Positions 15,349 through 39,400 of a stretch of DNA of 64,000 nt are shown here, piece after piece (position 1 is the first letter of the stretch; each line of letters begins with the position of its first letter). The stretch is from NCBI GenBank assembly GCA_028280325.1, contig JANQLZ010000090.1, positions 1 to 64,000 on the forward strand, given 5' to 3'. The translations under genes were made by a program, and so were the position numbers. Under the pieces are notes generated by a model. The model did not search any database, was not told the DNA's origin, and saw only the letters and a list, made by a program, of their open reading frames with translations. Source of the DNA: Bacillota bacterium (lineage in GTDB: Bacteria > Bacillota > UBA994 > PWPR01).

Positions 15349-16860
15349 ATGTTAGCAATAGTTAATGGCTGTACGGTTGTCGGAATCGAAGGCTTTCCAG
15401 TAAAAGTTGAGGTAGATGTCTCCAGAGGCATGCCTGGTTTTGAGATTGTCGGGCTGCCCGATGCCGCAGTAAAAGAAGCGAGAGAACGAGTGAAGGCCGC
15501 CATCAAAAATTCCGGATATCAATACCCAGGCACTAAAATAACGGTTAATCTGGCTCCTGCTGATATAAAAAAAGAAGGACCCCTGTTTGACCTCTCCATA
15601 GCAATTGGTATTTTAGCGGCAACCGGACAGTGCCCGGTACCGGAAAGTTCAGCGATGATCATAGGTGAGCTGTCGTTGAACGGAGAGGTGCGGGCTGTCA
15701 AGGGCATGCTGTCTGCTGCCATGGCAGCTGCTAAAAGCGGTTATGCAGTGTTGTATTCGCCGGGTCAATCAGCTTGGGAGGCTGCTCTGATTGACAGTCT
15801 ACAAGTATACCCGGTAAAAACGCTGCGGCATTTGGTCAATGTGATACTTGGAGATGAGCTATTGGAACCCCTCCAGCCAGATCAGCTTCTCAGCTCTGAA
15901 AGCCAGGACAACTTGGATTTTTTAAATATTCAGGGCCAGGAGCACGTTAAAAGGGCTCTGGAAATAGCTGCAGCCGGAGGACACAACTGTTTGATGATTG
16001 GGCCTCCTGGCTCTGGCAAAACCCTGTTAGCTCGATCTTTACCAGGTATCCTGCCGCAAATGAGCATTGAGGAAGCGTTGGATGTTACCCGTATCCACAG
16101 TGTCGTAGACTACACCTCGCTCGACAGAGGCTTGGTAAGAGTGCGCCCTTTCCGATCTCCCCATCATTCTATATCTTTTGCCGGATTAATCGGGGGAGGC
16201 CACACGCCCCGTCCCGGCGAGGTGAGCATGGCTCATCATGGGGTATTGTTTTTAGACGAGCTGCCTGAGTTCTCAAGACATACTCTGGAGCATTTGCGGC
16301 AGCCATTGGAGGACGGGCATGTCACCATCAGCAGGGCCCGTTATTCATGCACTTTTCCGGCTCAGTTTATGATGATTGCCTCAATGAACCCCTGCCCGTG
16401 CGGATATTATGGCGATGACGAGAAGGAGTGTACCTGCAGTATGGGCCAGATTAGAAAATACCTGCAGAAACTTTCCGGCCCCCTGTTAGACAGAATTGAT
16501 ATCCACGTCAGTGTGCCCAGGGTTACTTACACTCAGCTTACGGGCGAGGCCACCGGAGAAGACAGCCAAACCATCAGGAGCAGAGTGGAACAAGCCCGAA
16601 CAACTCAGTTAAAAAGATTTGCGGAATATAATATCTACTGTAACAGCTCCATGGGCCGGCCTTTAGTTAAACAGTTCTGTCAAATGAGCGATGTTGCCGA
16701 ATCGCTGCTCAGGGATGCCTTTGAAAAATTAAAATTCAGTGCTCGTGCTTATGACCGTATCTTGAAAGTATCGAGAACGATTGCTGATTTAGCTCACTCC
16801 GAGATAATAAATGAGCGCCATATTGCCGAAGCTATTCAGTACCGCGAGGGAGTTATTTAG
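15349..16860 (+). CDS. yifB: YifB family Mg chelatase-like AAA ATPase (ComM-like)
   Basis: The family includes ComM, a hexameric helicase that promotes branch migration during natural transformation. The 503 residues have the N-terminal ChlI/Lon-like domain (MLAIVNGCTVVGIEGF), then the AAA domain with Walker A GPPGSGKTLLARSLPGIL, Walker B VLFLDELPEF and MNPCPCGYYGD, and a C-terminal ChlI domain. ATG 15349 is chosen because GGGAGGG precedes it and the family N-terminus starts there. Its normal neighbour dprA now lies 24 kb away. The final 57 bp are duplicated at 34275-34331. Confidence 0.94.
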   Translation: MLAIVNGCTVVGIEGFPVKVEVDVSRGMPGFEIVGLPDAAVKEARERVKAAIKNSGYQYPGTKITVNLAPADIKKEGPLFDLSIAIGILAATGQCPVPESSAMIIGELSLNGEVRAVKGMLSAAMAAAKSGYAVLYSPGQSAWEAALIDSLQVYPVKTLRHLVNVILGDELLEPLQPDQLLSSESQDNLDFLNIQGQEHVKRALEIAAAGGHNCLMIGPPGSGKTLLARSLPGILPQMSIEEALDVTRIHSVVDYTSLDRGLVRVRPFRSPHHSISFAGLIGGGHTPRPGEVSMAHHGVLFLDELPEFSRHTLEHLRQPLEDGHVTISRARYSCTFPAQFMMIASMNPCPCGYYGDDEKECTCSMGQIRKYLQKLSGPLLDRIDIHVSVPRVTYTQLTGEATGEDSQTIRSRVEQARTTQLKRFAEYNIYCNSSMGRPLVKQFCQMSDVAESLLRDAFEKLKFSARAYDRILKVSRTIADLAHSEIINERHIAEAIQYREGVI

Positions 16861-16874
16861 AAATGATTTAACAG
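16804..16874. repeat. Left copy of a ~71-bp direct repeat (yifB 3' end)
   Basis: Bases 16804-16860 are identical over 57 bp to 34275-34331. The next 14 bases differ at two positions (AAATGATTTAACAG against CAATGATTCAACAG). In this copy the ATG at 16863 runs into TAA after two codons. The pair flanks the 17.5-kb kinase to M29 segment. Confidence 0.9.
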
Positions 16875-17220
16875 TCATTCACCCGCAGAATTTAGCCCTC
16901 AACCCAACAGTAAGTAAGCTCCAGTACCAATAACAAGTGACTATTAGTTCCAATCCAAGCCACCTTTTTCAGTGTATAATAGATGTAAACGCAATATACT
17001 TCCAGCAAATCATATTAAAGCCGGCCAATTCTATTGAAGCTTATTCCAAACCAGCCTGTTCACAGTAAGCGTTCATACTTGAAAAAACTAGATTTATTAC
17101 TTTGGTTTAAATCATGCAAATATAACAAAAGAATAGGGTTGATTTGGGTAAGCACATCGTCAAGTTTCAGAGTAATGAGGACTGGTCAACTGTGGCTTAT
17201 TCTTGACGGGGGAATGAAAC
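16875..17220. other. Intergenic region upstream of the histidine kinase gene
   Basis: About 350 bp with no convincing gene. TATAAT occurs at 16975-16980, without a clear -35 box (TTCCAA at 16948-16953 is weak). An 85-codon frame at 17034-17291 overlaps the kinase start and has no family features. The kinase RBS GGGGGAA lies at 17208-17214. Confidence 0.4.
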
Positions 17221-19185
17221 GTGAAGAATTTTATAACGATTTTTCTAGCTGCTACTTTATTGATAATGATAGTTCTGATTTTCATCTTTAGCGTCCCAAA
17301 GACAGAAGTGGAGTACGCTAAACAGGGTGTTATTGATCTTTCAGAGACTAGTTATGGCGAGCATCAACTAATTAACTTAGATGGGGAGTGGGAGTTCTAC
17401 TGGAATCAGCTGCTGGAGCCAGCTGATTTTGGAAATGACCTTCTGAGTCAACCGACCTATATAAACGTGCCTGGGCATTGGCTGCATGATCAAAGTGGCA
17501 ATACGTATCAGCCAGAAGGATATGCAACTTATCGGCTAAGGATTGTAAATGTTCCATCAAAAACATCTTTAGGTCTTAGAAAGCAAAACATTCGCAGTGC
17601 CAGTAAAATATTTATTAACGGGAACTTGATACTCCAAGACGGTCAACCTACAAGCTCGGAAGAGACTGTTTTACTGGGAAATTCACCCCAAGTGAGCTAT
17701 TTTGAGATAGAAGGAACTACAGTAGAGCTGATTATCCAGGTGGCAAATTATCATTACTTAGTGGGTGGAATAGGAAAACCCCTAATCTTAGGGCAACAGC
17801 AGGATATCCAGGTACATAGTCACAAAAAGATTTTCTTTGAAGTGGTCATTATTACTATTATACTGGTAGTAGGCTTGATTTACCTTATTCTATACATCTC
17901 TATTGATGTCTACCGCAAAAGAGAGCCCGCCATCATGCCCTTTGCTTTTTGCTGCATTTCCCTGGCCTTACAAAGCTCTCTTTTAAGTGAAAGAGTACTA
18001 TATATTATTCTGCCAAATCTTTCTATGACATGGACATTTAAACTGAGATATATAGCATTATGTTCAATCAATATATTTTTAATATTGATGGTGAACAGAA
18101 TGGCAAAGATTTTACCCGAAAAATTATTCAAAATGATCGCAGCTGTTTTTGGGACATATATTTTGGTAATCATACTTTTTCCTGTCAGTGTTTTTTTAAC
18201 ATTTGCCAGAGCTCTCATTGGTTTTTCCTTTGTTTTAATAGTTAGTGTATCCTTTAGATCCTTATATGTCTATTTAAAGAGAAAAAGATTAGGGAATACC
18301 CCAAAAAGTGATAGTATTTTTGTATTGGTCATGTTTTCCAGCATTGTCTACCATGTTGATCATGCTTTGTATGCCTTTGGGGTTAGAAAGGATGCTACTA
18401 TTGGCTTTTTATGTTTAGTCTTTCATTGTCTGAGTTTTGTCTATTTATTAGCCATGCGCTACTCTGAAGCCTATAAAAAAAATGAAGAAATGTCAGCTAA
18501 ATTAGTGGAGGCCTTTTACAGCCTGGATAAAACCACTCAGAAAGCGCAGCGGAGTGAAATAGCTTTTTTACAGGCTCAGATAAAGCCCCATTTCCTCTTT
18601 AATGCGATGAGTAGTATTATAAGCCTTTGTTATACTGATGGTCACCGTGCAGGCAGAATTTTAACAGAGCTATCAAAGTACCTTAAAGACTCTTTTAATA
18701 TAGATTATGTATCTGACTATGTCACAATAGCAAGTGAAATAGAGCTGGTCAAAACCTTTGTTAATATTGAAAGGGAGAGATTTGGCGACAGGATAAAAAT
18801 GGAATATGAGATTGACCCAGCAGCTCTGTCAGCTAAAATTATCCCTCTTGTAATTGAGCCTTTGGTCGAAAATGCTCTCAGACATGGTATTCTGAAAAAC
18901 AAAAAGAATGGTAGGGCCAAGCTTACCATTAAAAAAGTTGCTGAAGGTATTAGTATAGCTGTTGAAGACAATGGAAAAGGCATAGAAGAGTATCAATTAG
19001 CCAAGATCAGGCAGAGTAAATTGAAGAGTGATGTGCTTAAAGGCAATGGGGTAAGCCTGATAAATATCAATAATCGGCTGAAAGAGTTTTATAATAAGCA
19101 GCTAAACTTTGAGACCAGTGAAGCAGGCACAAAAGTATTTTTTACAATTCCTATAAAAACAGAAAAGGGGGATGAAAATGCTTAA
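17221..19185 (+). CDS. Sensor histidine kinase with 7TMR-DISM sensor (LytS/YehU-type catalytic part)
   Basis: The 654 residues start with a membrane helix (about 5-22). An outside beta-sandwich follows (GEWEFYWNQLLEP, INVPGHW, YATYRLRI), like the carbohydrate-binding-type 7TMR-DISMED2 domain. About seven membrane helices occupy residues 205-410. The kinase part has the phospho-acceptor His in QAQIKPHFLFNAMSS, and the ATPase motifs PLVENALRHGI and VEDNGKGI. GTG 17221 has RBS GGGGGAATG. It overlaps the response regulator gene by a few bases, so the two form a signalling pair. The ligand is unknown; the fold suggests a carbohydrate or other small molecule. Confidence 0.92.
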   Translation: MKNFITIFLAATLLIMIVLIFIFSVPKTEVEYAKQGVIDLSETSYGEHQLINLDGEWEFYWNQLLEPADFGNDLLSQPTYINVPGHWLHDQSGNTYQPEGYATYRLRIVNVPSKTSLGLRKQNIRSASKIFINGNLILQDGQPTSSEETVLLGNSPQVSYFEIEGTTVELIIQVANYHYLVGGIGKPLILGQQQDIQVHSHKKIFFEVVIITIILVVGLIYLILYISIDVYRKREPAIMPFAFCCISLALQSSLLSERVLYIILPNLSMTWTFKLRYIALCSINIFLILMVNRMAKILPEKLFKMIAAVFGTYILVIILFPVSVFLTFARALIGFSFVLIVSVSFRSLYVYLKRKRLGNTPKSDSIFVLVMFSSIVYHVDHALYAFGVRKDATIGFLCLVFHCLSFVYLLAMRYSEAYKKNEEMSAKLVEAFYSLDKTTQKAQRSEIAFLQAQIKPHFLFNAMSSIISLCYTDGHRAGRILTELSKYLKDSFNIDYVSDYVTIASEIELVKTFVNIERERFGDRIKMEYEIDPAALSAKIIPLVIEPLVENALRHGILKNKKNGRAKLTIKKVAEGISIAVEDNGKGIEEYQLAKIRQSKLKSDVLKGNGVSLININNRLKEFYNKQLNFETSEAGTKVFFTIPIKTEKGDENA

Positions 19186-20164
19186 GGTTGTAATTGTCGA
19201 CGATGAAATTCTAGTGCTAAACCTCTTAGAAAGACTATTACTCCAAAGCGGCAAAGTGGAAATTATTGGTAAGTTCACTGACGCCAGTGAGGCCCTTGCA
19301 GAAATCCAGAGATTAAAGCCTGATGTTGTCTTTTTAGACGTTGAAATGCCCGAGCTAAACGGAATAGAGTTGGGAACAAGACTGGTAGAGTTTGATAATG
19401 ATCTGGATATTGTCTTTGTTACTGCCTACGAGCAATATTCAATCCATGCCTTTAGAATAAATGCTGTTAACTATATCTTAAAACCGGTTGACAGGGATAG
19501 TATTGCTGAGACTTTGCGCCGGTTATCCAGAATTAGCAAAAGAGGGAATCAACCCCAAAATAAAAGTGTTCGCATCAAGCTGTTGGGGGAGTTTAGCATC
19601 TATAACAAAGATAACAGTAAAGTTAAATGGACAACCTCTAAGGTTGAGGAACTGTTGGCATTACTGATTGTAAATAGAATAAAGGGAATATCTAAGTGGA
19701 AAATTATCGATATTCTGTGGGGAGAATCTGAGCTGGGGAAATCCCAGCAGAATTTATACACCACAATTTTTAGACTAAAGAAAACCCTGAGTGAAGCAGG
19801 GGTAAAGGTTAGTATCAATAATAAGCTGGGCACCTACTACCTGTCTTTAGAGGGTAGTTTCTGTGATTTGTACGAGTTTGAGGACTTTGTTAAGCAAAGG
19901 AAGCAGCTAAATGAAGCTACTTTAGCCAAGTTCGAAAGGGTTATCTCTCTCTACCAAGGAGATTTGTTTGGAGATAAATCGTATACCTGGAATATTGAGG
20001 AAAGAGAGTTTTGTTACAGTCATTACACCGATCTCGTAAAAAGAGTTATGGCTTATTATCTGGACAACAAGCTTATTGATAGATTGAAAAACCTGTATAG
20101 AGAAGTTAAGTATTATTTAAATGAGGATGACTTGCAGTATATAAAAAAACGGTTGGCTTTTTAG
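19178..20164 (+). CDS. Response regulator with SARP-type DNA-binding and BTAD domains
   Basis: The receiver domain (residues 1 to about 120) has the acidic pair VDDE, the phospho-acceptor Asp in VVFLDVEMPELNG, and the conserved TAYE and KPVD. A winged-helix domain follows (VRIKLLGEFSIYN, SKWKIIDILWGE, NLYTTIFRLKKTL), then a helical BTAD region. This layout is a SARP-like activator fused to a receiver. I prefer ATG 19178 (328 residues), correctly spaced from AAAGGGGG; ATG 19172 is possible. The giant gene lies 367 bp downstream on the same strand and is the natural candidate target, which is inference. Confidence 0.9.
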   Translation: MLKVVIVDDEILVLNLLERLLLQSGKVEIIGKFTDASEALAEIQRLKPDVVFLDVEMPELNGIELGTRLVEFDNDLDIVFVTAYEQYSIHAFRINAVNYILKPVDRDSIAETLRRLSRISKRGNQPQNKSVRIKLLGEFSIYNKDNSKVKWTTSKVEELLALLIVNRIKGISKWKIIDILWGESELGKSQQNLYTTIFRLKKTLSEAGVKVSINNKLGTYYLSLEGSFCDLYEFEDFVKQRKQLNEATLAKFERVISLYQGDLFGDKSYTWNIEEREFCYSHYTDLVKRVMAYYLDNKLIDRLKNLYREVKYYLNEDDLQYIKKRLAF

Positions 20165-20531: not shown

Positions 20532-23500
20532 ATGAAGTCGAAATCAATTAATAATATTTTAAAAATAGCGGTGTTCTTTCTGGCTGTAGCAGCCACTTTT
20601 AGCAGCCTAATTTCTCCCTTAGCAATGGCCGAGCCAGCTATTACTAACCTGGGATCTGGGTTTGTTAACCCTAAAAGTGTGGCTGTGGATAATAGTGGAA
20701 ATATCTATGTTTTGGATGGTAATTCATCGTCCATCATTAAAAAAATGGATGCAAGTGGAGATAATATATCAACCCTGTTTACATACAATGAATCACTAAA
20801 TAGTATCGCATTAGATAGCAGTGGAAATATTTACGCAACAGTATCTAGAACTGATTCTTATGTAATTAAACTAGATAAGAACGGTACTTTTTTAACAGCG
20901 TTAGGCCTTGGTTTAAAAAATCCTGAAGGCCTGGCTGTGGATAGTAGTGGTAATATCTATGTGGCAGATACCGGTAATAATGCAGTTAAAAAAATAGCTA
21001 AAGACAGCATCAATGCTCAAACTATTTTCTTTTGTTACCAGCCTTTCGGTATAACAGTAGCTAGTGGCAAGATCTATGTTGTAAGTTTAGATGTAGAACG
21101 TACCCTTAAAATATTGAATTTAGATGGCAGTGAGCTTATAACCTTTAGCACGCGTTTTAATGCTCCCAAAAGTGTAGCTGTAGACAGTAACGGATATATT
21201 TATGTGGCTGATTCTGCTAATGATGTTATTCAAATAATGAATGCCAGTGGAGGGCATGTATTGACCTTAAGCTCAGGTTTTGCCAGTCCATATGGTCTGG
21301 CAATAGATAATAACGACAGTCTCTATGTAACAAACTACAATGGTAATGTCGTAATGAAAATGGGTAAAGAGGTGGATGTAGCAGCTACTACTGTGGTACC
21401 AACTGTGGGGACCGACAATACCGTTACCTTAACAGTTAAGAGTCTGGTGAATGAGACCGATACCAGCATTAACGGAACTAAGAATGTCATCATATCGGGG
21501 GTACTGGCGGCCCCTGACGGTTCCTATGGCAGCTTCAATGGGGTGGATTTAGATGCCAGTTCAGAAACCGGGCAAAGTATCAGTGTTTCCTTTACTGATG
21601 GAGTAGCTAATGCTGCTTTAAGCCTGAACAGTGCAAAAGCTCAAACTATCGCTTTCAATATAGAGGGCGTAAGCACCTCTCCCAACAATGTTTTGAGCAT
21701 TACCCCAGTCCATGAATCAGCAGCTTCACTGGCTATAGCTCAGAATATCGATAATCCTTCGGTCAATGGCGGCGTTTTTGCTCAGCAACCTATAGTTAAT
21801 TTACTGGACAAATATGGTAACTTATGTACCAACGACAACAGTACTGAAATCACTGCCTCCAAAAAAGACACCGGCGACTGGCTCCTGGACGGTACTGTAA
21901 CTATCACAGCAGTAGCTGGAGAAGCTAGCTTTACCGACCTGAGGGCCATCAATAATCCTCAGGTAATTAATGCCCAACTGGCCTTTAATGCCTTGGATTT
22001 ACCAGAAGTAAAAAGTAAAACAGTCACCTTGCCGATAGCAGAGTATAAAGTATCCTACTATCAGGGCGACCATGGCACGATAAGCAACAATTCAGAAACT
22101 GTAAACTATGAAAGCTCACCGGCAGCTGTTCCCACCGTGACGGCAGATGCTGGCTATGCATTTGACTATTGGAGCAGCGATGGCGGGGTGTCTAAGTTGA
22201 CACCCGCAGAGGTAGCTTCAGAGACGATTATCGCAGATATTAGCTATACAGCTTATTATTATCAGGTGGCTACAGCAGTGGCTGCTTCCAACACTCCCCT
22301 GGCAGGTGCTGACAATACCATTACCTTAACAGTTCTAGATCCCTCCGGTGCTATTGATACCAGCTTTAGTGGAGCAAAGAATGTTACTATAGCTGGTGTT
22401 CAGGCGGCTCCTAACCATACATATGGACGCTTTAACACGATAGATTTGGCTGCCAGCTCAGAGACTGGGCAAGTTATTTCTGTCACTTTTACAGAAGGGG
22501 TAGCGCATCCGGCATTAAGCCTTAACAAGGCTGGAGCTCAAGCTATCGCCTTTGATATTGAAGGGTTAAGCACCCCTTCTACCAGTCTTTTGAGCATCAC
22601 ACCAACTCCTGAAAAAGTAGATTATCTGGAAATAACACAAAATATAACAGTGCCGTTGTCCAATGGCGGTAATTTTAACAGTCAACCCCAAGTCACCTTA
22701 AAGGATGCCTATAGCAATATCTGTACCAATGACAGCAGCACTGAAATCACTGCCTCTAAAAATGATTCGGGTGACTGGTCCCTGGCTGGTACCACAACTA
22801 TAACAGCAGTAGCTGGAGAAGCCAGCTTTACCGACCTGAGAGCCATTAATAATCCTCAGGTAACCAATGCCCGGCTGGCCTTTAAGGCCTTAGATTTAGA
22901 GGAAGTAGCAGAAGTAATGAGCACAACGATTACCTTACCGATAGCAGAGTATACAGTAACCTATAATGAGGGCGACCATGGCACAGTCAACAGCAATTCC
23001 GAAACAGTAGAATATCTGGGCTCACCGGCATCTGTTCCCACCGTAACAGCAGCTGCTGGTTATGAATTTGCCTACTGGAGCAGCGATGGGGGGGTAAATA
23101 CCTTAACATCAACAGACCTGGCTTCAGAGGTGATTACCGCTGATATCACCTATACGGCCTATTACGTCAAGCTCGCAGTTATGGCTACAGCAGAAGCCGA
23201 TACCCTGGAACCTGCTGTAGGAGCAGACATTACCACTACATTGACCGTTAAGAATTCTTTTAATATGACAGATACCAGCTTTAGTGGCTTAAAGAATGTA
23301 ACCATATCCGGTGTACTAGCCGCACCGAACGGTACATACGGAGGTTTTAATGGGATAGAGTTGAATGTCAACTCGACAATAGGACAGACAATCAGTGTTT
23401 CTTTTACAGATGGAGTAGCCCGTCCGACTTTAAGGCTGAACAAGGCAGGAGCACAAACCATAGCCTTCAGTATAGCAGGGCTAATTACAGCAAATACAAA

Positions 23501-26500
23501 TAACCTAAGCCTTACACCAACCCCTGAAACAGCAGATTTCATGGAAATCAGCCAGGATATAACTTCCGAGGGAGGTAGTTTTGACAGGCAGCCAATAGTA
23601 TTCTTAAAGGATATATATGGCAACATAGCTACCGATGACAGTAGCACTCAAGTCACTGCTTCAAAAAAAGATCCCGACGTTGGTTATTGGTTACTGACAG
23701 GCACATCAACCATAACAGCAGTAAATGGGGTCATAACCTTTACAGACCTTGCCGCCGTAAATGGTCCTCAGATAGAAGGCGCCCAGATTGCCTTTAAGGC
23801 AACAGGTTTAGCAGAAGTATTAAGTGCAATGGTTACCTTACCGGTAAATACGGATTTTGAGGTAGATAACTATCTCTTTGCCTGGGGCAGCAATGGTAGC
23901 GCAGAAAGTCAGTTTGATAAGCCAAACAAAATGGCAGTGGATACTGCGGGTAATGTGTATGTAGCAGATACGAATAACAATCGAATCCAGAAGTTTAGTA
24001 CAGAAGGAGCTTATCTTACGCAGTGGGGAAGTGCTGGTAGTGCAGACGGTGAGTTTAGTACCCCACATGGAGTGGCAGTGGATGGTAAAGGTAATGTGTA
24101 TGTAGCAGATACAGGTAACAATCGAATTCAGAAGTTTAGTACAGAAGGAGTTTATCTTACGCAGTGGGGAAGTGCTGGCAGTGGAGATGGTCAGTTTGAT
24201 ACCCCTCTTGCAGTAGCAGTAGATGTTACAGGAAATGTGTATGTAGTCGATGCACGTAACTATCGAATCCAAAAGTTTGATTCAAGTGGAGCTTATCTTA
24301 CCCAGTGGGGTAGCGAAGGTAGTGCAGACGGTGAGTTAAATTACCCATCTGGAGTTGCAGTAGACGCTGTAGGAAATGTTTATGTGGCAGAAGTGGGCAA
24401 CCATCGAGTCCAAAAGTTTGATTCAAGTGGAAAATTTGATAAGAAGTGGGGCAGCTATGGAATCGGAAACGGTGAGTTCTATAGTCCATCTGGAGTTGGA
24501 GTAGATGTTGCCGGAAATGTTTATGTAACAGATCGTAATAATCATCGAATCCAAAAGTTTGATTCAAATAGAACTTATCTTACCCAGTGGGGTAGCCCTG
24601 GGAGCGGAGAGGGTCAGTTCAACAACCCAAACGGAATAGGAGTGGATACTGCAGGTAATGTTTATGTAGCAGAAGAAGATAACCAGCGAATTCAAAAGTT
24701 TGTTCCCTATATACCCCCAGAATATACAGCAGGTTACCCCAAGGTAGATTCGCCTGTAACAGAAGGGTTTGTTATAAGGGCCAGTATAAACGAAGCAGGA
24801 ACAGCCTACTATGTGATATTAGCAGATGGATCAGCTATGCCCAGTGTAAAGCAGGTAAAGGCTGGGCAGGACAGTGTGGGAGCCGGTGCGCTCAAAAGCG
24901 GAAACATGGCCCTGGAAGCAGATACAGAAAAAGCAGTAGTGGTGAATGGGCTGAGTGAAAACACAAACTATGATATATATATCGTTTGTGAGGACAGCAG
25001 TGGGGCAATACAGGAGGAAGCAGTGCAAAGAGATATTAAAACACTGGATAGCACAGCTTTTGCAGTAAAAAGCTATGTTTTTGATTCGGCATGGGGAAGT
25101 GAAGGCAATGCAAACGGCCAGTTCAAATACCCAACCTCAGTAGCGCTGGATGCTGCCGGAAATACATATGTAGTAGGCAGGAATAATCATCGAATTCAGA
25201 AATTTGATTCAAATGGGAACTTTATAAAGCAGTGGGGCAGCCATGGGAGCGGTAACGGCCAGTTCAAATACCCAACTTCAGTAGCACTGGATGCTGCCGG
25301 AAATACATATGTAGTAGATAGGAGTAATCATCGAATCCAGAAATTTGATTCAAATGGGGACTTTATGAAGCAGTGGGGAAGTGAAGGTAGTACAGACGGT
25401 CAGTTTGATGCCCCATTTGGAGTAGCAGTGGATGCTGTAGGAAATGTATATGTGTCAGAAATGGGCAACCATCGAATCCAAAAGTTTGATTCAAATGGAG
25501 ACTTTATTATGAAGTGGGGAGGCTATGGTAGTGCAGACGGTCAGTTTAGTTACCCATCTGGAGTAGCAGTGGATGCTGTAGGAAATGTGTATGTGGCCGA
25601 GTTTGATAATCGAGTCCAAAAGTTTGATTCAAATGGAATATTTATTACGAAGTGGGGAAGTGGTTCTACTGGTAGTGGGAATGGTCAGTTCAGTCACCCT
25701 CATGGAGTAGCAGTGGATGCTGCAGGCAATGTGTATGTGGCAGATTCATTTAACAACCGAATCCAAAAGTTTGATTCAAATGGAAATTATCTGATGAAGT
25801 GGGGAAGTGAAGGCAATGGAGAGGGTCAGTTCAATAGCCCAAATGGAGTAGCAGTGGACGTTACAGGAAATGTGTATGTGGCAGATGCCAATAACCATCG
25901 AATCCAAAAGTTTATTCCAAATCTACCGCCAGCATATACAGCAGATTACCCCAAGGTAGATACGCCAATAACAGAAGGATTTGTAATAAGGGCCAGTATA
26001 AACGAAGCAGGAACGGCCTACTATGTGGTATTAGCAGCTGGATCGACTATGCCAAGTGTACAGCAGGTAATGGCTGGGCAGGACAGTATGGGAGCCGGTG
26101 CAGTCAAAAGCGGAAACATTACCCTGGAAGCAGATACAGAAAAATCAGTGGTAGTGACCGGGTTGAGTGAAAATACAAACTATAATATATATATGGTTTG
26201 TGAGGACAGCAATGGGGCAATACAAGAGGAAGTAACGCAAAGAGATATTAAAACACTGGATACCGCAGTTTTTGCAGCACGTAGCTATATCTTTGATTCA
26301 GCATGGGGAAGCAATGGTAGTGCAGACGGTCAGTTCAATAACCCAAGTAGTATAGCAGTGGACGGTGCAGGAAATGTGTATATAGCAGATACCAATAAAT
26401 ATCGAATCCAAAAGTTTGATTTAGAGGGGAGATATCTAACTAGATGGGGAAGTGCTGGTAGTGGAGATGGTCAGTTTGATCAACCACACGGAATAGCAGT

Positions 26501-29500
26501 GGATGCTGGAGGAAATGTGTATGTAGCTGATACAGATAACTACCGAATTCAGAAATTTGATTCAAATGGAGCTTATCTTACGCAGTGGGGTAGCCATGGT
26601 AGTGGAGATGGTCAGTTTAATCTCCCAATTGCAGTAGCGGTAGACACTGCCGGAAATGTTTATGTATTAGATTCGAAAAACATCCGAATCCAAAAGTTTG
26701 ATTCAGAAGGTAATTATTTAACTAAATGGGGAGAATTTGGTGATGAGGATGGTCAGTTTAAGCTTCCACACGGAATAGCAGTGGATATTGTAGGAAATGT
26801 ATATGTGGCAGAATGGGAAAACCATCGAATCCAAAAGTTTGATTCAGAGGGAAAATATTTAACTAAATTGGGAAGTAAAGGCATAGAAGACGGTGAGTTC
26901 AGATACCCAAAGGGAGTTGGAGTGGATGCTGCCGGGAATGTTTATGTAGCAGATACACATAACAACCGAATCCAAAAGTTTGCTTCAGATCGGACTTTTA
27001 TTGCCAAGTGGGGTAGCCACGGTAGCGGAGATGGTCAGTTCGATTACCTAAATGGAATAGCAGTGGATACTGCCGGAAATGTGTATGTGGCAGATGGAGC
27101 TGCTAACCATCGAGTCCAAAGGTTTATTCCAAATCTACCTCCAGAATATACAGAAGGTTACCCCAAGGTAGATACGCCTACGCCAGAAGGTTTTACAATA
27201 AGGGTGAAAATAGACGAAGCAGGAACAGCCTACTATGTAGTATTAGTAGATGGAGCAGCTATGCCAAGTGTAGAGCAGGTAATGGCTGGGCAAGACAGTA
27301 CGGGAGCCGACGCAGTCAAAAGTGGAAATATGGCGCTGGAAGCAGTTACAGAAAAATCAGTGGTAGTTACCGGGCTGATCGAGGACACAGAATATGATGT
27401 ATATCTGGTTTGCGAAGGCAGCAGTGGAAATACCCAACATGACATAAGCCTGTATGATATAAAAACAGCTTTAAGTGATGGGGAAGCAGTAGTACGAGAT
27501 AAAGCAGCCCTTACAGAGGCGGTAATCAGGGGTAGTAACAGCTCAATAAATAACATAACTACCAACCTAAACCTTATCACAGCAGGAAGCAATGGAACAG
27601 CAATAAGCTGGTCCAGCAGCGAAGAAATATATGTGACAGTGTCAGGGGCTGTAAATAGACCAGCCTATGGAATAGGCGATAAAGAAATTTCCTTAACAGC
27701 AACAATAACAAAGGGAGCAGCCAGTGACACGAAAGCATTTGTAGTAACAGTAAAAGAACAGCTTCAGAGTGATGCACAGGCGGTAGCTGCGGATAAAGCA
27801 ACCCTTACAGAGACAGTTATCAGGGGTAGCAACAGCTCATTAAACAATATAACTACCAACCTAAACCTTGTTACAGCAGGAAGCAATGGAACAGCAATAA
27901 GCTGGTCCAGTAGTGAAGAAATATATGTGACACCATTAGGAGAGGTAAATAGACCAACCTATGGAGAAGGTGACAAAGAAATTACTCTAATAGCAACAAT
28001 AACAAAGGGAGCAGCCAGTGACACGAAGGCATTTGTAGTAACAGTAAAAGAAATGATTGACGACACACTTATGGCTACAGCAGAAGCCGATACACTGGAA
28101 CCTACTGTTGGAGCAGCCAATACCATCATATTGACCGTTAAGGATTCATTTGGTATGACAGATATAAGCTTTAGTGGGTCAAAGAATGTAATCATATCAG
28201 GTATTGAGGCAGCACCTAATGACACCTATGGACGTTTTAATGACATAGAGTTGGATGTAAACTCGAGGACAGGGCAGGCAATCAGTGTTACTTTTACAGA
28301 TGGTGTAGCCACTCCGTCCCTAAGCTTGAACAAAGCAGGTGCTCAAATTGTAGCCTTTAGTATAGAAGGGGTGACCCCGCCTGAAACCAATAATCTGAGT
28401 ATCACACCAACTCCTGGTACAGTAGATTTCATGGAACTGACTCAAAACATAACAGCACCGTTATCCAATGGGGGTAATTTTGATAGTCAACCCAAAGTCA
28501 CCTTAAAGGATGCCTATGGCAATATCTGCATTAATGACAGTAGCACTCAAATTACTGCTTCCAAAGAAGATACAGGAGATTGGGCATTGACTGGCTCCAC
28601 AACTGTAATAGCTGAGGATGGAGTGGCAAGTTTTACAGACCTTAGGGCCATCAATAATCCTCAGATAGACGATGCCCAGTTGGCCTTTAACGTAGGACTT
28701 ATAAAAGTAACAAGTGTTAAGGTGAGCTTACCGGCAGCAAATAGCTACACGGTGTCTTATCAACAAGGTGCCCATGGCAGCCTTAGCAGTAGCTCAGAAG
28801 TGGTCTATCATAATAGTTCTCCTGTTAATATTCCGACAGTGACTGCCGATGCTGGTTATGGATTTGCCTACTGGAGTAGCGATGGTGGGGAAAACAAGCT
28901 AACATCAACAGAACTGGCTTCAGAGACGATTACTGCTGATATCACTTTTACGGCCTATTACACCCAGGTACCAGTTATCGAATCAGCCGTTGCTGGTAGC
29001 AGAACTGTTGATTTGCACTGGAGTGGGGGAGAAGGGGCTACAGAATATAAGATATACCAGTCAACAGTATCAGGCTCCTATGGCGAAGTGCTGGCAAATG
29101 TAAATAGATCAGTACTTACCTATCAGGTAGCGGAATTGACCAATGGCACGACCTATTACTATGCAGTAACAGCTGTCACTTCCGAGGGTGAAACTCCGAA
29201 ATCTGTGGTAGTCAGTGCCATGCCGCTAGCTGGCGATCCGATAATGGCTTATCCTAAAATCACAACATTTGATTATGATTTTACTGGTATCAGGAGTATG
29301 GGAGTTGACAGCGAGGGTAACATCTATGCAGTTGATGGTGATAATGATCGTGTTATTATACTAGATTCAGAGGGCAATCATTCCATAACCTGGGACAATA
29401 CAACTTTGGAAGATTTAGATTTGCAGACCCCAATGGATATTGCCATAGATAATAACGACAATGTTTATATAGCAGATACCGTCAATAAAAAAATAAAAAT

Positions 29501-32500
29501 GATCAATAACGAGGGAGTGGTTAGCACAATCTGGGGTCCGGGAGAAGGGTATTATAACAATGTTGCAGTTAACCCCGATGGCAGCTATGTTTATTTTACA
29601 GAGTCCGGTAATAATGCTATCCAAAGAATAGATGCTAACGATGGAACTATCACGGAGATAGGGGCAGGCAAGTTTAGCAATCCGGGAGCAGTCGCCTTAG
29701 ACAGTGACGGAAATATTTATGTAGCAGAATGGAACAATAGTCAGCTTAAAAAAATTGATACAAATGGTAATGTAGTAACTGTGGGATCGGGTTTTAACAA
29801 CATTGCGGGGATAGTAGTAGACAGCAGCGGGAATATTTTTGTTACAGAAAGATTTACTGATAGAGTGAAAATGATAGTGGGAGGCCAGGGAGATATTGTA
29901 ATCTTGGGCTCAGGTTTTAGTTCTCCCAGAGGAATAGACCTGGACAGTAGTGGAAATATTTATGTAGCCAACAACATCGGTGGTTCCATCCAAAAAATCT
30001 TGACAGAGGATGCAACCAGCGCTACCGCAAAAGCCACTACCATGCTACCCACAGTTGGTGCAGATAATAGTATTACCTTAACCGTTAAAAACAGCTTTGG
30101 CTTAACTGATACCAGTTTTGCAGGTTCCAGGAATGTGACCATATCTGGTGTTCGAGCAGCACCTAATGGTACATATGGTTACTTTAATGGGGTAGATTTG
30201 GATGCCAACTCGGTTACAGGACAGACCATCAGCGTTTCCTTTACAGATGGGGTAGCAAGTGTAGCTCTAAGCCTTAATAAGGCTGGTCCTCGAGTTATAG
30301 CTTTCGATATTGAGGGAGTTAGCACCCCTGCTACCAATGACTTAATCTTTACCTTAGATCATGGAGACATAGCTTCGATAGCTATTTATGAGGATATCGA
30401 GCCTCCCTCTTTTAATGGAGGTCCTTTCCACAAGCAGCCAGCAGTGTCTCTTCTGGATTATTATGGCAATTACTGTACTAAGGACAATAGCACTCAAATT
30501 ACTGCCTCTAAACATGATAAAGGTCTTTGGTCTTTGATTGGCAATACAACTCTAACAGCAGAATATGGAGTAGTTAGCTTTTTAGACCTTAGAGCCATCA
30601 ATAATTCTAAGGTATCCGGGGCCCAATTGGCCTTTAATGCATCGGGCTTAACAGGAGATGCAGAAATTACTAGTGCCATAGTGACCTTACCTGAAGCAAA
30701 TAGCTATACGGTAACCTATCAACAAGGCGACCATGGCACCCTTAGCAGTAGCTCAGAAGTGGTTTATCATAATAGTTCTCCTATTAATATTCCGACAGTG
30801 ACAGCCGATGCTGGCTACGTGTTTGCCTATTGGAGCAGTGATGGTGGGGCTACCCAGCTGACATCAGATCAACTAGCTTTAGAGATGATTACCGCAGATA
30901 CTACCTATACAGCCTATTATACGGATGCTTTACTTCCAGGAGCACCGACAGCTGTCACGGCAACTGCTGGTAATCGTCGCGCAACAATCAGGTTTTCCCC
31001 ACCTGCAGATGATGGAGGCGCTTCCATTACCAGCTATCTTGTTACCGCAAGTCCTGGTGGGGTAATAGGGTCTGGCGCAAGTAGTCCTATAGCTGTAACC
31101 GGATTAACTAATGGCACAGCCTATACTTTTACGGTAAAAGCGGTCAATGTTAATGGAGAAGGTCTGGTATCAGAGCCTTCAAACCGGGTGACGCCCTATA
31201 AGCCAACATCGTCTTCACCGTCAACTAAGCCCTCACAGCCCGCAGAAGTGGAAGAGCCTGCGGCCGTCCTAGTAAACGGCGAGACCCAAAACTTAGCAAC
31301 AGAAGTGATTACCCAAGAGGGCCCTAAAACGGTTGTTACAGTTACTTTAGATAAGGAAAAAGTACAGGACGTACTGCAGGAAGAGGGTAGTAATCCTACG
31401 GTAACAGTAGCCGTTAATGATGCAAGTGATACGGTAATTACCCAGCTAACTGGCGAAACAGTTCAAAACATGGCTGAAAACGAAGCTGTTTTAGAGATTA
31501 AGACCCAAAATGTTGTGTATACTGTGCCGGTAGCGGCCATAAATATGGAGAATATCGTCCAGGAACTGGGTTCTCCGGAGGCAGAGATTGTTTTAGATAT
31601 TCAAGTATCAGAGCCAACTGTAGAGATCAACAGGATAATTGAAGATAAAGTAAAGAAACACAATTATCAGCTAATCGTCCAGCCAGTGGAGTTTAATATT
31701 TCTGCCACAGAGGATGGTAAGACGGTCGTAGTTGCTAAGTACAACAGCTACGTAGAGCGCATGATTGCCTTACCGGATGTTTTAGACCCCAATACAGTGT
31801 ATACAGCACTGGTTCTTCATGCAGATGGCAGCTTCTCACCTGTGCCCATGGCTATCATCACCCTTGATGGTAAAAACTATGCCAGGATAAGTAGCTTAAC
31901 AAACAGTGTATATACGGTGATCGGGAATAAGGTAGCTTTTAGTGATGTCCAAAACCACTGGGCGCAGGAAACCATTAATAACTTGGGATCCAGGCTCATT
32001 GTTAGCGGTATTGGGGATAATCGATTTGAGCCCAACAGGGATGTAACCAGGGCCGAATTTGTAACCATGGTGGTGAGAGCGCTGGGCCTCAGGGGCTCAG
32101 ATTCAGATAAGGACCTCTTCCAAGATGTTCCCTCTACTGCCTGGTATTATAATACTCTTGCTGCTGCCTATGAGCACGAGATAATATCCGGTTATCTCAA
32201 TAGTGAGTTTAGGCCTGTGGATAAAATAACTCGGGAACAGGCCATGACCATTATTGCCAGAGCCATGAAAATAACTGAGATGGAATTAGACCTGAACAGT
32301 GATGAGGTTGAAGAGCTGCTGTCCAGCTTTGAGGATGGAGAGCGGGTAGCAGATTATGCCAGAAACAGCGTGGCAGCCTGTGTCAAAGCAGGTATTGTAA
32401 CCGGCCGCAATGGTAAGCTGCTGGCACCTAAGGATAATATTACCCGCGCGGAAGCAGCCAGTATGATAACTCGCTTGTTAGAAAAGTCAGATTTGATATA

Positions 32501-32501
32501 G
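20532..32501 (+). CDS. Giant secreted NHL-propeller / Ig-like / SLH surface protein (3989 aa)
   Basis: A Sec signal peptide (residues 1-33, cleavage after LAMA) leads five NHL beta-propellers of six blades each, at about residues 36-280, 1110-1394, 1510-1796, 1914-2199 and 2905-3158. Five copies of a Big-1-like two-sandwich unit lie at about 280-503, 580-808, 878-1106, 2509-2735 and 3158-3390. Four InlB-B-type repeats lie at about 504-579, 809-877, 2736-2812 and 3391-3465. Two atrophied-Ig-like repeats (2316-2508), two fibronectin-III-like domains (about 2813-2900 and 3466-3555), a Ser/Pro linker and a beta stalk precede three SLH domains (about 3802-3989). SLH domains bind secondary cell-wall polymer, so the protein should cover the cell surface. 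It may act in adhesion or carbohydrate binding; no enzyme motif is visible. Confidence 0.93.
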   Translation: MKSKSINNILKIAVFFLAVAATFSSLISPLAMAEPAITNLGSGFVNPKSVAVDNSGNIYVLDGNSSSIIKKMDASGDNISTLFTYNESLNSIALDSSGNIYATVSRTDSYVIKLDKNGTFLTALGLGLKNPEGLAVDSSGNIYVADTGNNAVKKIAKDSINAQTIFFCYQPFGITVASGKIYVVSLDVERTLKILNLDGSELITFSTRFNAPKSVAVDSNGYIYVADSANDVIQIMNASGGHVLTLSSGFASPYGLAIDNNDSLYVTNYNGNVVMKMGKEVDVAATTVVPTVGTDNTVTLTVKSLVNETDTSINGTKNVIISGVLAAPDGSYGSFNGVDLDASSETGQSISVSFTDGVANAALSLNSAKAQTIAFNIEGVSTSPNNVLSITPVHESAASLAIAQNIDNPSVNGGVFAQQPIVNLLDKYGNLCTNDNSTEITASKKDTGDWLLDGTVTITAVAGEASFTDLRAINNPQVINAQLAFNALDLPEVKSKTVTLPIAEYKVSYYQGDHGTISNNSETVNYESSPAAVPTVTADAGYAFDYWSSDGGVSKLTPAEVASETIIADISYTAYYYQVATAVAASNTPLAGADNTITLTVLDPSGAIDTSFSGAKNVTIAGVQAAPNHTYGRFNTIDLAASSETGQVISVTFTEGVAHPALSLNKAGAQAIAFDIEGLSTPSTSLLSITPTPEKVDYLEITQNITVPLSNGGNFNSQPQVTLKDAYSNICTNDSSTEITASKNDSGDWSLAGTTTITAVAGEASFTDLRAINNPQVTNARLAFKALDLEEVAEVMSTTITLPIAEYTVTYNEGDHGTVNSNSETVEYLGSPASVPTVTAAAGYEFAYWSSDGGVNTLTSTDLASEVITADITYTAYYVKLAVMATAEADTLEPAVGADITTTLTVKNSFNMTDTSFSGLKNVTISGVLAAPNGTYGGFNGIELNVNSTIGQTISVSFTDGVARPTLRLNKAGAQTIAFSIAGLITANTNNLSLTPTPETADFMEISQDITSEGGSFDRQPIVFLKDIYGNIATDDSSTQVTASKKDPDVGYWLLTGTSTITAVNGVITFTDLAAVNGPQIEGAQIAFKATGLAEVLSAMVTLPVNTDFEVDNYLFAWGSNGSAESQFDKPNKMAVDTAGNVYVADTNNNRIQKFSTEGAYLTQWGSAGSADGEFSTPHGVAVDGKGNVYVADTGNNRIQKFSTEGVYLTQWGSAGSGDGQFDTPLAVAVDVTGNVYVVDARNYRIQKFDSSGAYLTQWGSEGSADGELNYPSGVAVDAVGNVYVAEVGNHRVQKFDSSGKFDKKWGSYGIGNGEFYSPSGVGVDVAGNVYVTDRNNHRIQKFDSNRTYLTQWGSPGSGEGQFNNPNGIGVDTAGNVYVAEEDNQRIQKFVPYIPPEYTAGYPKVDSPVTEGFVIRASINEAGTAYYVILADGSAMPSVKQVKAGQDSVGAGALKSGNMALEADTEKAVVVNGLSENTNYDIYIVCEDSSGAIQEEAVQRDIKTLDSTAFAVKSYVFDSAWGSEGNANGQFKYPTSVALDAAGNTYVVGRNNHRIQKFDSNGNFIKQWGSHGSGNGQFKYPTSVALDAAGNTYVVDRSNHRIQKFDSNGDFMKQWGSEGSTDGQFDAPFGVAVDAVGNVYVSEMGNHRIQKFDSNGDFIMKWGGYGSADGQFSYPSGVAVDAVGNVYVAEFDNRVQKFDSNGIFITKWGSGSTGSGNGQFSHPHGVAVDAAGNVYVADSFNNRIQKFDSNGNYLMKWGSEGNGEGQFNSPNGVAVDVTGNVYVADANNHRIQKFIPNLPPAYTADYPKVDTPITEGFVIRASINEAGTAYYVVLAAGSTMPSVQQVMAGQDSMGAGAVKSGNITLEADTEKSVVVTGLSENTNYNIYMVCEDSNGAIQEEVTQRDIKTLDTAVFAARSYIFDSAWGSNGSADGQFNNPSSIAVDGAGNVYIADTNKYRIQKFDLEGRYLTRWGSAGSGDGQFDQPHGIAVDAGGNVYVADTDNYRIQKFDSNGAYLTQWGSHGSGDGQFNLPIAVAVDTAGNVYVLDSKNIRIQKFDSEGNYLTKWGEFGDEDGQFKLPHGIAVDIVGNVYVAEWENHRIQKFDSEGKYLTKLGSKGIEDGEFRYPKGVGVDAAGNVYVADTHNNRIQKFASDRTFIAKWGSHGSGDGQFDYLNGIAVDTAGNVYVADGAANHRVQRFIPNLPPEYTEGYPKVDTPTPEGFTIRVKIDEAGTAYYVVLVDGAAMPSVEQVMAGQDSTGADAVKSGNMALEAVTEKSVVVTGLIEDTEYDVYLVCEGSSGNTQHDISLYDIKTALSDGEAVVRDKAALTEAVIRGSNSSINNITTNLNLITAGSNGTAISWSSSEEIYVTVSGAVNRPAYGIGDKEISLTATITKGAASDTKAFVVTVKEQLQSDAQAVAADKATLTETVIRGSNSSLNNITTNLNLVTAGSNGTAISWSSSEEIYVTPLGEVNRPTYGEGDKEITLIATITKGAASDTKAFVVTVKEMIDDTLMATAEADTLEPTVGAANTIILTVKDSFGMTDISFSGSKNVIISGIEAAPNDTYGRFNDIELDVNSRTGQAISVTFTDGVATPSLSLNKAGAQIVAFSIEGVTPPETNNLSITPTPGTVDFMELTQNITAPLSNGGNFDSQPKVTLKDAYGNICINDSSTQITASKEDTGDWALTGSTTVIAEDGVASFTDLRAINNPQIDDAQLAFNVGLIKVTSVKVSLPAANSYTVSYQQGAHGSLSSSSEVVYHNSSPVNIPTVTADAGYGFAYWSSDGGENKLTSTELASETITADITFTAYYTQVPVIESAVAGSRTVDLHWSGGEGATEYKIYQSTVSGSYGEVLANVNRSVLTYQVAELTNGTTYYYAVTAVTSEGETPKSVVVSAMPLAGDPIMAYPKITTFDYDFTGIRSMGVDSEGNIYAVDGDNDRVIILDSEGNHSITWDNTTLEDLDLQTPMDIAIDNNDNVYIADTVNKKIKMINNEGVVSTIWGPGEGYYNNVAVNPDGSYVYFTESGNNAIQRIDANDGTITEIGAGKFSNPGAVALDSDGNIYVAEWNNSQLKKIDTNGNVVTVGSGFNNIAGIVVDSSGNIFVTERFTDRVKMIVGGQGDIVILGSGFSSPRGIDLDSSGNIYVANNIGGSIQKILTEDATSATAKATTMLPTVGADNSITLTVKNSFGLTDTSFAGSRNVTISGVRAAPNGTYGYFNGVDLDANSVTGQTISVSFTDGVASVALSLNKAGPRVIAFDIEGVSTPATNDLIFTLDHGDIASIAIYEDIEPPSFNGGPFHKQPAVSLLDYYGNYCTKDNSTQITASKHDKGLWSLIGNTTLTAEYGVVSFLDLRAINNSKVSGAQLAFNASGLTGDAEITSAIVTLPEANSYTVTYQQGDHGTLSSSSEVVYHNSSPINIPTVTADAGYVFAYWSSDGGATQLTSDQLALEMITADTTYTAYYTDALLPGAPTAVTATAGNRRATIRFSPPADDGGASITSYLVTASPGGVIGSGASSPIAVTGLTNGTAYTFTVKAVNVNGEGLVSEPSNRVTPYKPTSSSPSTKPSQPAEVEEPAAVLVNGETQNLATEVITQEGPKTVVTVTLDKEKVQDVLQEEGSNPTVTVAVNDASDTVITQLTGETVQNMAENEAVLEIKTQNVVYTVPVAAINMENIVQELGSPEAEIVLDIQVSEPTVEINRIIEDKVKKHNYQLIVQPVEFNISATEDGKTVVVAKYNSYVERMIALPDVLDPNTVYTALVLHADGSFSPVPMAIITLDGKNYARISSLTNSVYTVIGNKVAFSDVQNHWAQETINNLGSRLIVSGIGDNRFEPNRDVTRAEFVTMVVRALGLRGSDSDKDLFQDVPSTAWYYNTLAAAYEHEIISGYLNSEFRPVDKITREQAMTIIARAMKITEMELDLNSDEVEELLSSFEDGERVADYARNSVAACVKAGIVTGRNGKLLAPKDNITRAEAASMITRLLEKSDLI
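23856..25058 (+). repeat. Coding supermodule 1 (six NHL blades + linker domain)
   Basis: First of three consecutive units of about 1.2 kb in the giant gene. Each has six blades of about 47 codons, with cores such as AVDAAGNVYVADT and NHRIQKFDSNG, then a domain of about 115 residues beginning YPKVD and containing INEAGTAYYV and PSVKQV. Blades are similar at the base level, showing internal duplication. Confidence 0.85.
25059..26270 (+). repeat. Coding supermodule 2 (six NHL blades + linker domain)
   Basis: Second unit, 1212 bp, starting at the Phe before SYVFDSAWG. Its fourth blade is one residue short (AEFDNRVQKF) and its fifth has a two-residue insertion (WGSGSTGSGNG), so blades drift in length while keeping frame. 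The first two blades share FKYPTSVALDAAGNTYVV, a recent duplication. Confidence 0.85.
26271..27474 (+). repeat. Coding supermodule 3 (six NHL blades + linker domain)
   Basis: Third unit of about 1.2 kb, starting at the Phe before AARSYIFDSAWG. The linker domain here is more diverged at its end (CEGSSGNTQHDISLYDIKT). It is followed by the two atrophied-Ig-like repeats that share GSNSS and ITTNLNL motifs. Confidence 0.85.
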
Positions 32502-32802: not shown

Positions 32803-34032
32803 ATGAATAAAAAAACAATACAAGATTATGCCAAACTTATTGTAGAATTTGCTGTGAATGTCAGTACAGGCCAGACAGTTGTGATTTATTCGCCTGTTGA
32901 ATGTGCTGAATTTGCCAGGCAAATTGCCACCTTAGCCTATCAGCGCCAGGCCAAAGAAGTTGAGATTAAATACAGTGACGACAAGTTTAGTAAAATAAGA
33001 TTAGATAACACTGCTGAAGAAGTTTTAACAGATATACCTGACTACAAGATAGCTTCTCGGGAGTATTATGCCCAAAAGAATGCCACAATGATCAGCATCG
33101 CTTCAATAGACCCAGATCTTTATCAAGGGTCAGATCTTAAGAAGATGGGAGAGGTTCAAAAAGCAACCAGTAAAGCATTTAAAAACTATATGGATATAGT
33201 TATGAAAGGAAAATGCCCCTGGGTTGTTGTAGCTTATCCATCGATAAACTGGGCTCGTAAAGTATTTCCTGATTTAGAGGAGGCCAAAGCGTTAAAGGAA
33301 TTATGGAAACTGGTAATAAAGGCGATTCGCTTAGATCAGAAAGACCCAGTTGGCGCATGGAATACCCATAAAGAAAAGATTGAAATCAGAAAAGACTTTT
33401 TAAATAAAAAGCAGTTTAAGCAAATAAAATTCACTAATAGCTTAGGAACAAACTTAACAATAGGGATGCCAGAAAACCATATCTGGGTAGGTGTCTCGAG
33501 TAAGACCCCGGATGGATTTGAGTTTATCCCCAACTTACCGACAGAAGAAATTTTTAGTACACCCCACAAATATCAGGTAGACGGTACCTTAGTCAGTTCG
33601 ATGCCCCTTAACCATAGTGGTCAATTAGTTGAAGACTTTAAGTTTGAGTTCAAAAATGGCAAGGTAGTTAATTATTCTGCAAAAACAGGAAAGGGTGTTT
33701 TGGATAATATTTTTAATATTGACGAAGGTGCAAGCTTTTTAGGTGAGGTCGCTTTGGTTCCCCATAGCTCTCCGATTTCTGAGATGGGAGTAATGTTTTA
33801 CAGCACTTTATATGATGAAAATGCCAGCTGCCATTTTGCCCTGGGCAGAGCTTACCCAGACTGTGTTGAAAACGGAAAATCACTCAGCGATACTCAAATG
33901 GAAGCTAGGGGTGTTAACAACTCCATGACTCATGTTGACTTTATGATTGGCTCAAAAGACCTGAGTATAATAGGTGTTGAAAAAGACGGCAGTGAAGTAC
34001 ATATCTTTAAGCATGGAGACTGGGCTTTTTAG
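32803..34032 (+). CDS. M29 family aminopeptidase (AmpS/PepS-like)
   Basis: The 409 residues match the M29 family of two-metal, cobalt- or zinc-dependent aminopeptidases of the cytoplasm. Recognisable parts are IGMPENHIWVGVSSKTPDG, LPTEEIFSTPHKYQVDG, FLGEVALVPHSSPIS, YDENASCHFALGRAYPDCVE, and the C-terminal MTHVDFMIGSKDLSIIGV. The glutamates, histidines and aspartate in these stretches are the expected metal ligands. ATG 32803 has RBS GAGGAGACG. It is a single gene between the giant gene and the YifB remnant. A 31-codon open stretch follows its TAG in the same frame. Confidence 0.92.
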   Translation: MNKKTIQDYAKLIVEFAVNVSTGQTVVIYSPVECAEFARQIATLAYQRQAKEVEIKYSDDKFSKIRLDNTAEEVLTDIPDYKIASREYYAQKNATMISIASIDPDLYQGSDLKKMGEVQKATSKAFKNYMDIVMKGKCPWVVVAYPSINWARKVFPDLEEAKALKELWKLVIKAIRLDQKDPVGAWNTHKEKIEIRKDFLNKKQFKQIKFTNSLGTNLTIGMPENHIWVGVSSKTPDGFEFIPNLPTEEIFSTPHKYQVDGTLVSSMPLNHSGQLVEDFKFEFKNGKVVNYSAKTGKGVLDNIFNIDEGASFLGEVALVPHSSPISEMGVMFYSTLYDENASCHFALGRAYPDCVENGKSLSDTQMEARGVNNSMTHVDFMIGSKDLSIIGVEKDGSEVHIFKHGDWAF

Positions 34033-34128
34033 TTTGGGCAAGAAACAGTAAAAGAAATCATTTTTGAAATGGACAAAGACAAGCAGGCTATGGAGGTATT
34101 AAATACGTCAATGCCAATAACTGATTAA
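34033..34128 (+). pseudogene. In-frame coding-like remnant after the M29 stop
   Basis: After the TAG at 34030-34032 the same frame stays open for 31 codons to TAA at 34126-34128. It reads like a real C-terminus (KEIIFEMDKDKQAMEVLNTS). M29 proteins normally end near the preceding WAF, so this is probably the tail of another lost gene. Loose similarity to ends of substrate-binding proteins is not enough to name it. Confidence 0.3.
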
Positions 34129-34213
34129 AGATAATATTGTAGGAGATAGAAAAGCTGAAAATAGAGCAGGGAAAGGTAGGGAACCAATAGAATAAGTCAT
34201 TTGGTTGTGGACC

Positions 34214-34331
34214 GCCAGAGGGCTTATGCTATCATTTAAAAGTTTCAGCTATTGCCGATTTAACCGACTCTGATATAATAAATGAGCGCCATATTGCCGA
34301 AGCTATTCAGTACCGCGAGGGAGTTATTTAG
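34214..34331 (+). pseudogene. Remnant of a second yifB 3' end
   Basis: Bases 34275-34331 are identical to the last 57 bp of yifB, including its stop codon. Upstream, 34214-34274 is still recognisably similar (AGAGGGCTTATG, ATTGCCGATTTA) but has small indels that break the frame. No start codon or AAA domain is present. It is a dead fragment, and it provides the upstream DNA for the SpoIIE-like gene. Confidence 0.8.
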
Positions 34332-34345
34332 CAATGATTCAACAG
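34275..34345. repeat. Right copy of the ~71-bp direct repeat
   Basis: Partner of 16804-16874. It contains the yifB stop and, two bases later, the ATG of the SpoIIE-like gene, with GAGGGAG upstream serving as its only visible RBS. The arrangement implies that yifB and the SpoIIE-like gene were once adjacent and translationally coupled. Confidence 0.9.
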
Positions 34346-38598: not shown

Positions 38599-38644
38599 GG
38601 TTTATTTCTGATTACAGCAGAAGTGGGTTTACTTCGTAAACAGG

Positions 38645-38786: not shown

Positions 38787-38859
38787 TTGTTTATATACCG
38801 AGAAAAATGTAGTATTTACAACATAAAACCCCCAATGTTTCACTCCATTACAAGACTAT

Positions 38860-39393: not shown

Positions 39394-39400
39394 TATGAAT

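Follow-up and report, generated by a model that had tools for sequence, protein, structure and literature searches.

Unrelated DNA between yifB and a SpoIIE-like gene in two Bacillota congeners: a candidate insertion hotspot without a recognised integrase

Many of the hotspots at which bacteria acquire genes contain no recognisable mobile element, and the mechanism that fills them is debated. Insertion-duplication is familiar mainly from laboratory constructs, and the islands at comM, the yifB homolog of Acinetobacter baumannii, are transposons inside the gene. Hotspots that lack mobility genes and are flanked by recombining core genes have been described by Oliveira et al. 2017 (PMC5635113). 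Tandem accretion and CIMEs at the 3′ ends of genes are represented by ICESt1-type elements and by the ssrA islands of Dehalococcoides (PMC3146451, PMC5704250). Insertion-duplication of the Campbell type and homology-facilitated illegitimate recombination (PMC3240628) both predict a full gene and a 5′-truncated 3′ copy around the insert, with donor-recipient divergence between the copies.

The locus considered here lies in a window of 64,000 nt, the whole stretch of DNA analysed, which belongs to one of the 155 contigs of a draft assembly (genome G000). In this window 17.5 kb separate a full-length yifB from a SpoIIE-like gene (Table 1). The target belongs to the same gene family as that of the A. 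baumannii comM islands; unlike the latter, yifB is intact and the segment carries no transposase. Searching the literature for integration at yifB gave nothing relevant. As in the hotspots of PMC5635113, the genes that fill one interval are unrelated between two species, mobility genes are not seen and recombination of a flanking gene is suspected, but yifB leaves a visible truncated duplicate, which is not expected of replacement between intact core genes. With CIMEs and ssrA islands the locus shares an intact target gene and 3′-end repeats that bound segments, several of them in tandem and many without an integrase; the yifB repeats, in contrast, are long and gene-like with variable 5′ ends, and no integrase-bearing member was found. 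The arrangement of a full gene and a 5′-truncated copy is also the one predicted by the recombination routes of PMC3240628.

Table 1. Features of the window around the yifB and SpoIIE-like genes
Feature	Position	Strand	Basis or remark
N6/N4 DNA methyltransferase gene, left flank	14365..15330	+	PF01555; NCBIfam adenine-specific methyltransferase models below cut-off
Full-length yifB, ComM-type Mg-chelatase-like AAA ATPase, 509 aa	15331..16860	+	PF01078/PF13541/PF13335; 75% aa identical to G001 yifB
Left 57-nt exact block	16804..16860	+	Repeat comparison
Left copy of 95-nt repeat, 14 nt beyond yifB stop	16780..16874	+	Holds ATG ATT TAA matching SpoIIE start
LytS-type histidine kinase	17221..19185	+	7TMR-DISM, His_kinase, HATPase_c
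Response regulator, Trans_reg_C-like output domain	19172..20164	+	Domain search
3989-aa repeat protein, probably secreted	20532..32501	+	NHL propellers, aBig_2, Flg_new_2, fn3, three C-terminal SLH domains
M29 aminopeptidase	32803..34032	+	PF02073; ortholog elsewhere in G001
Right copy: 5′-truncated, partly decayed yifB 3′ end	34212..34331	+	Similarity match 34236-34328; exact block 34275-34331
Right copy of 95-nt repeat, overlaps SpoIIE start codon	34251..34345	+	Repeat comparison
SpoIIE-type PP2C phosphatase gene, N-terminal membrane part	34334..35659	+	PF07228; 69% in G001, same placement beside yifB remnant
Conserved 406-aa gene beside SpoIIE	35656..36876	+	Syntenic in G001; NCBIfam NF048012 match far below cut-off
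dprA, then topA and trmFO	40860..41951 (dprA)	+	dprA/trmFO by profile; topA read from sequence

The repeat pair and the DNA it encloses

The preliminary description reported 57 identical bases, followed by 14 with two differences, at the end of yifB and again at 34275-34345, and direct comparison reproduces this pattern, the exact block closing with the yifB stop codon TAG. An identical stretch of this length within 64 kb is far beyond chance, and the repeat sequence occurs at two sites only among the 155 contigs searched, both of them in the window. The duplication of about 71 bp that had been proposed is real but not uniform. The block is enclosed by a 95-nt repeat (family D11, 92% identity), and directly to its left the copies mismatch at 6 of 24 nt, so that only the last 57 nt of the gene are identical. 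Anchored extension detects a weaker yifB-like signal reaching leftward to ~34212 (p 0.01 against the window's own yifB; 0/100 shuffles against the remnant in the congener G001) and no likeness between the copies past 16874/34345. A remnant stretching further, across 34033-34212, was rejected as the similarity is not significant. By its sequence, the right copy is a 5′-truncated, partly decayed yifB 3′ end adjoining the SpoIIE-like gene. As had been noted, its stop codon (TAG, 34329-34331) is followed after two bases by the SpoIIE ATG at 34334, and the counterpart ATG of the left copy, at 16864, reads ATG ATT TAA and ends after two codons, within 14 nt that resemble the SpoIIE start.

Under a uniform divergence of 16%, a run of 57 identical bases would arise at about 5 in 100,000 by our arithmetic, and the exact block therefore reflects more than the gradual decay of an ancient duplicate. 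Searches of the window detected neither a tRNA or tmRNA nor any Rfam family, and a known RNA gene of any of these kinds was rejected as the att site. Could the repeat instead have joined the wrong flanks during assembly, the true chromosome running from yifB directly into SpoIIE? A 57-bp exact repeat can mislead short-word assemblers, and the genome is divided among 155 contigs. Such an artefact is nevertheless very improbable, given that the single-contig genome G001 displays the same architecture with decayed remnants, that a yifB-like left flank is present at both copies, and that any other join demands a separate 17.5-kb circle.

The segment contains four genes, for the kinase, the regulator, the giant protein and the M29 peptidase, and the earlier statement that no integrase or transposase is among them is confirmed. 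These genes include none for conjugation or mobilisation, and no inverted repeats of at least 25 nt lie at the segment ends. The segment thus shows neither the features of an ICE or IME (an integrase at one end, conjugation or mobilisation genes) nor those of a transposon or IS (transposase, terminal inverted repeats, short target duplication); the direct repeats from a target gene 3′ end that characterise CIMEs are found at yifB. GC content marks no clear foreign block, being 37% across the kinase and regulator genes, 43-45% within the giant gene and about 40% near M29, against 47% around yifB and 39% around SpoIIE. Because M29 has an ortholog at another locus of G001 (G001:C1:1166142-1167449; 66% aa, 70.8% DNA), the segment is not one foreign island. 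The DNA similarity at that locus ends at the gene edges, and for the kinase and regulator G001 offers no more than distant paralogs (best 39% and 32%). It appears likely that the segment is composite, or that M29 was relocated in one lineage.

An entirely internal origin, in which native DNA was tandemly duplicated or relocated, the yifB tail was duplicated with it, and replacement and decay followed with nothing external entering, would agree with M29 being a gene of the genus and with the overlap between segment GC (37-45%) and flank GC. It is less easily reconciled with the persistence of only the first 12 bases of the SpoIIE gene after the left copy, with the want of close G001 orthologs of the kinase and regulator, or with the third-position bias in other genomes described below, and we consider it unlikely.

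The NHL repeats of the giant protein number about 17 and form several propeller blocks; larger units recur at ~0.9, 1.2 and 1.9 kb, and the product is probably a modular cell-surface protein. Elsewhere in the window, a 67-nt direct repeat (96% identical, 1-67 and 4580-4646) bounds about 4.5 kb at the left edge. Beyond SpoIIE and its neighbour gene come an M42 peptidase and then dprA, topA and trmFO; short direct and inverted repeats cluster at 38617-39472, in the gap that precedes the M42 gene.

The same interval in the congener, and yifB fragments across the phylum

G001, a complete single-contig genome, is the sole congener compared, and the genus is represented here by two species. Its gene order runs from a full yifB through two further yifB 3′ ends to SpoIIE and the syntenic neighbour. 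The first remnant (185 bp, 84% to its own yifB) stays in frame for about 65 codons; the second, which is the third yifB 3′ end, is decayed and has its TAG directly before the SpoIIE ATG. The DNA between the yifB copies encodes a two-component system, ABC transporters and an AraC-type regulator; its content is unrelated to the segment of the window, so that the kinase-giant segment is not a fixture of this interval in all relatives. Gene content therefore varies at one conserved interval, the full yifB sitting 8-17 kb upstream of the SpoIIE-abutting yifB 3′ end across both species. G001 repeats the pattern of the window: its yifB copies 1 and 2 are almost the same over the final ~60 nt and have diverged in the part upstream. 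The two G001 segments have a common non-yifB right end of about 120-200 bp and unrelated left ends; the right end of the G000 segment is dissimilar. A conserved motif upstream of the G001 remnants was considered as a promoter or element end and dismissed, as it consists partly of decayed yifB interior and otherwise of this common right-end region.

Since the yifB tail abuts SpoIIE in both species, we infer that yifB-SpoIIE was probably the ancestral junction of the genus, which each lineage filled independently. The former adjacency suggested in the preliminary description is retained to this extent, although the proposed search of relatives for a direct junction found none in any genome examined, G001 being interrupted too. 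The suggestion that a segment entered between the two genes likewise gains from the unrelated DNA of the congener, but entry as one foreign block is not required, given the M29 ortholog.

Among 300 genomes of the phylum surveyed, 253 match the yifB C-terminus, and 10 of these have more than one match, comprising three full paralogs and seven truncated pieces. Truncated extra 3′ ends are thus present in about 7/253 genomes, the piece in G167 being weak. The same search with the control gene ispG returned second matches in 0/293 genomes; with the window's genome left out, the comparison is 6/252 vs 0/292 (about p = 0.01 by our arithmetic, with a single clean control gene). A second control, dprA, was discarded because second matches are common and full paralogs likely. 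In distant families the remnants lie downstream of yifB on the same strand and vary in length: 468 bp at 96.8% identity, 32 kb away, in G123; 401 bp at 97.5% plus 108 bp, 2 and 9 kb away, in G195; and 218 bp at 95.4%, 7 kb away, in G199.

Differences between the copies fall largely at third codon positions in G123 (12/15), G199 (8/10) and G001 (20/29), as if two functional alleles had diverged and then met. There is no such bias in G195 (5/10), and the window copies offer six scorable coding differences, 4 of them at third positions, a number too small to demonstrate two alleles. The claim that entry duplicated the yifB 3′ end holds as far as the presence of a second 3′ end is concerned; it is no plain duplication, because the copies diverge to the left of the exact block and those of other genomes show mostly third-position differences.

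The resident yifB of G199 is host-like up to and including its own tail, and the remnant there is cut at both ends; G074, considered as its empty-site reference, has a rearranged gene order and no clean empty site. A scan of further genome contigs gave distant yifB genes only and no nearer relative, and the phage and plasmid records with yifB 3′ ends, being unannotated faecal virome contigs or very large, probably chromosomal records, were uninformative. The 32-kb interval from yifB to the remnant in G123 (G123:C58) contains genes for radical-SAM-like proteins, synthetase-like genes and ABC transporter genes, which may together form a biosynthetic cluster. G034 has, some 350 kb from yifB, a stand-alone 73-aa ORF like the YifB C-terminus with its own ATG (9586-9807 of its locus), which may be a maintained small protein.

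In none of the segments of the window, G001, G123, G195 and G199 was an integrase recognised, no large serine recombinase or tyrosine integrase was found adjoining them, and no related integrase element adjoins the 3′ remnants in the loci read. G000 yields a single match each to PF00589 and PF07508, on contigs other than that of the window; the former, on contig C92, is the sole tyrosine recombinase match in the genome. Several relatives have PF00589 near yifB, for example at G123:C58:35123 and G245:C1:1195147. In G195, a 71-aa, serine-recombinase-like ORF starting GIWIRVSTEDQ (6515-6730 of the locus, minus strand) comes right after a yifB 3′ remnant; with no Pfam hit, it is unconfirmed as a resolvase.

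The 5′ end of yifB is also duplicated in some genomes. Upstream of the full gene, G245 (three times), G197 and G268 carry a further copy of the promoter region with the first ~36 codons, and all these repeats stop at the same codon. This looks like site-specific insertion with a replacement 5′ end, a phenomenon separate from the 3′ remnants. In G060 (G060:C16:167420-245533), yifB codons 1-36 sit 78 kb from the remainder, which begins at about codon 27; this suggests a large insertion at the same 5′ site.

Possible origin of the second yifB 3′ end

What could have placed a second yifB 3′ end beside the SpoIIE-like gene? Starting from an ancestor in which, to judge from the two species, yifB adjoined that gene, DNA would have come to lie between them through recombination that drew on a second yifB 3′ end. 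The likeliest step would be a RecA-type insertion-duplication in which the resident yifB recombined with DNA bearing a 3′ fragment of the yifB of a related lineage, whether by a Campbell-like single crossover or in the variant with one homologous end that is familiar from transformation. The products would be a full-length yifB on the left and, beside SpoIIE, a 5′-truncated yifB 3′ end that later decayed. In place of the single insertion first envisaged, the site would have been reused, with at least one insertion in G000 and two in G001, each bringing unrelated cargo; the insertion reading itself is kept. Such a route would explain the intact gene with its truncated copy, the lack of recognised integrases, the differing 5′ ends of the remnants and, in other genomes, the allele-like divergence. 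It is weakened by the 57-60-nt identity block, whose end falls in one and the same codon region in the two species and which would also fit a site-specific core, by the G199 remnant, which is no clean insertion-duplication, and by the unbiased differences in G195. No donor genome for an incoming yifB allele was found. We judge an integrase-less insertion hotspot made by RecA-type recombination via a second yifB 3′ end to have about an even chance of being correct.

The identity block, which both species have at the 3′ end of yifB, could also be the mark of a decayed, CIME-like integrative element, whose repeats would represent attL and attR, whose tandem copies in G001 would reflect accretion, and whose integrase would have been lost or would act in trans. 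CIMEs and ssrA-island arrays offer precedents, and the tandem array of G001, in which both segments carry the related right end beside truncated yifB copies, is in keeping with such an origin, as are the short resolvase-like ORF adjoining the G195 remnant and the elements elsewhere in the phylum that appear to insert at one fixed yifB 5′ codon. Yet the recombinase matches of G000 lie outside the segment, where no integrase is recognised, the remnants span 120-470 bp with differing 5′ ends, the G195 ORF has no Pfam hit, and the right end of the G000 segment is unlike that of G001. Because no integrase stands beside any 3′ remnant examined, we give this explanation, possible but doubtful, half the weight of the RecA route, and we prefer a homologous single crossover to a decayed integrase element.

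A broader extrapolation would make yifB a phylum-wide address for integrase-less islands that carry a slice of yifB along with them and are inserted at that slice by homologous recombination, repeatedly and in tandem, with yifB kept intact; we regard this as decidedly unlikely. Our conclusions draw on two species of the genus, a draft genome, six scorable coding differences and a single clean control gene. Within this scope, the interval is probably a recurrent gene-addition spot that operates by ordinary recombination rather than through an element with its own enzyme. The kinship of YifB with ComM and the proximity of the gene to dprA, a DNA uptake gene, invite the conjecture of a link to transformation. 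A site that keeps a truncated scar of its flanking gene after each event would expose the donor allele, the crossover point and the order of events in sequence.
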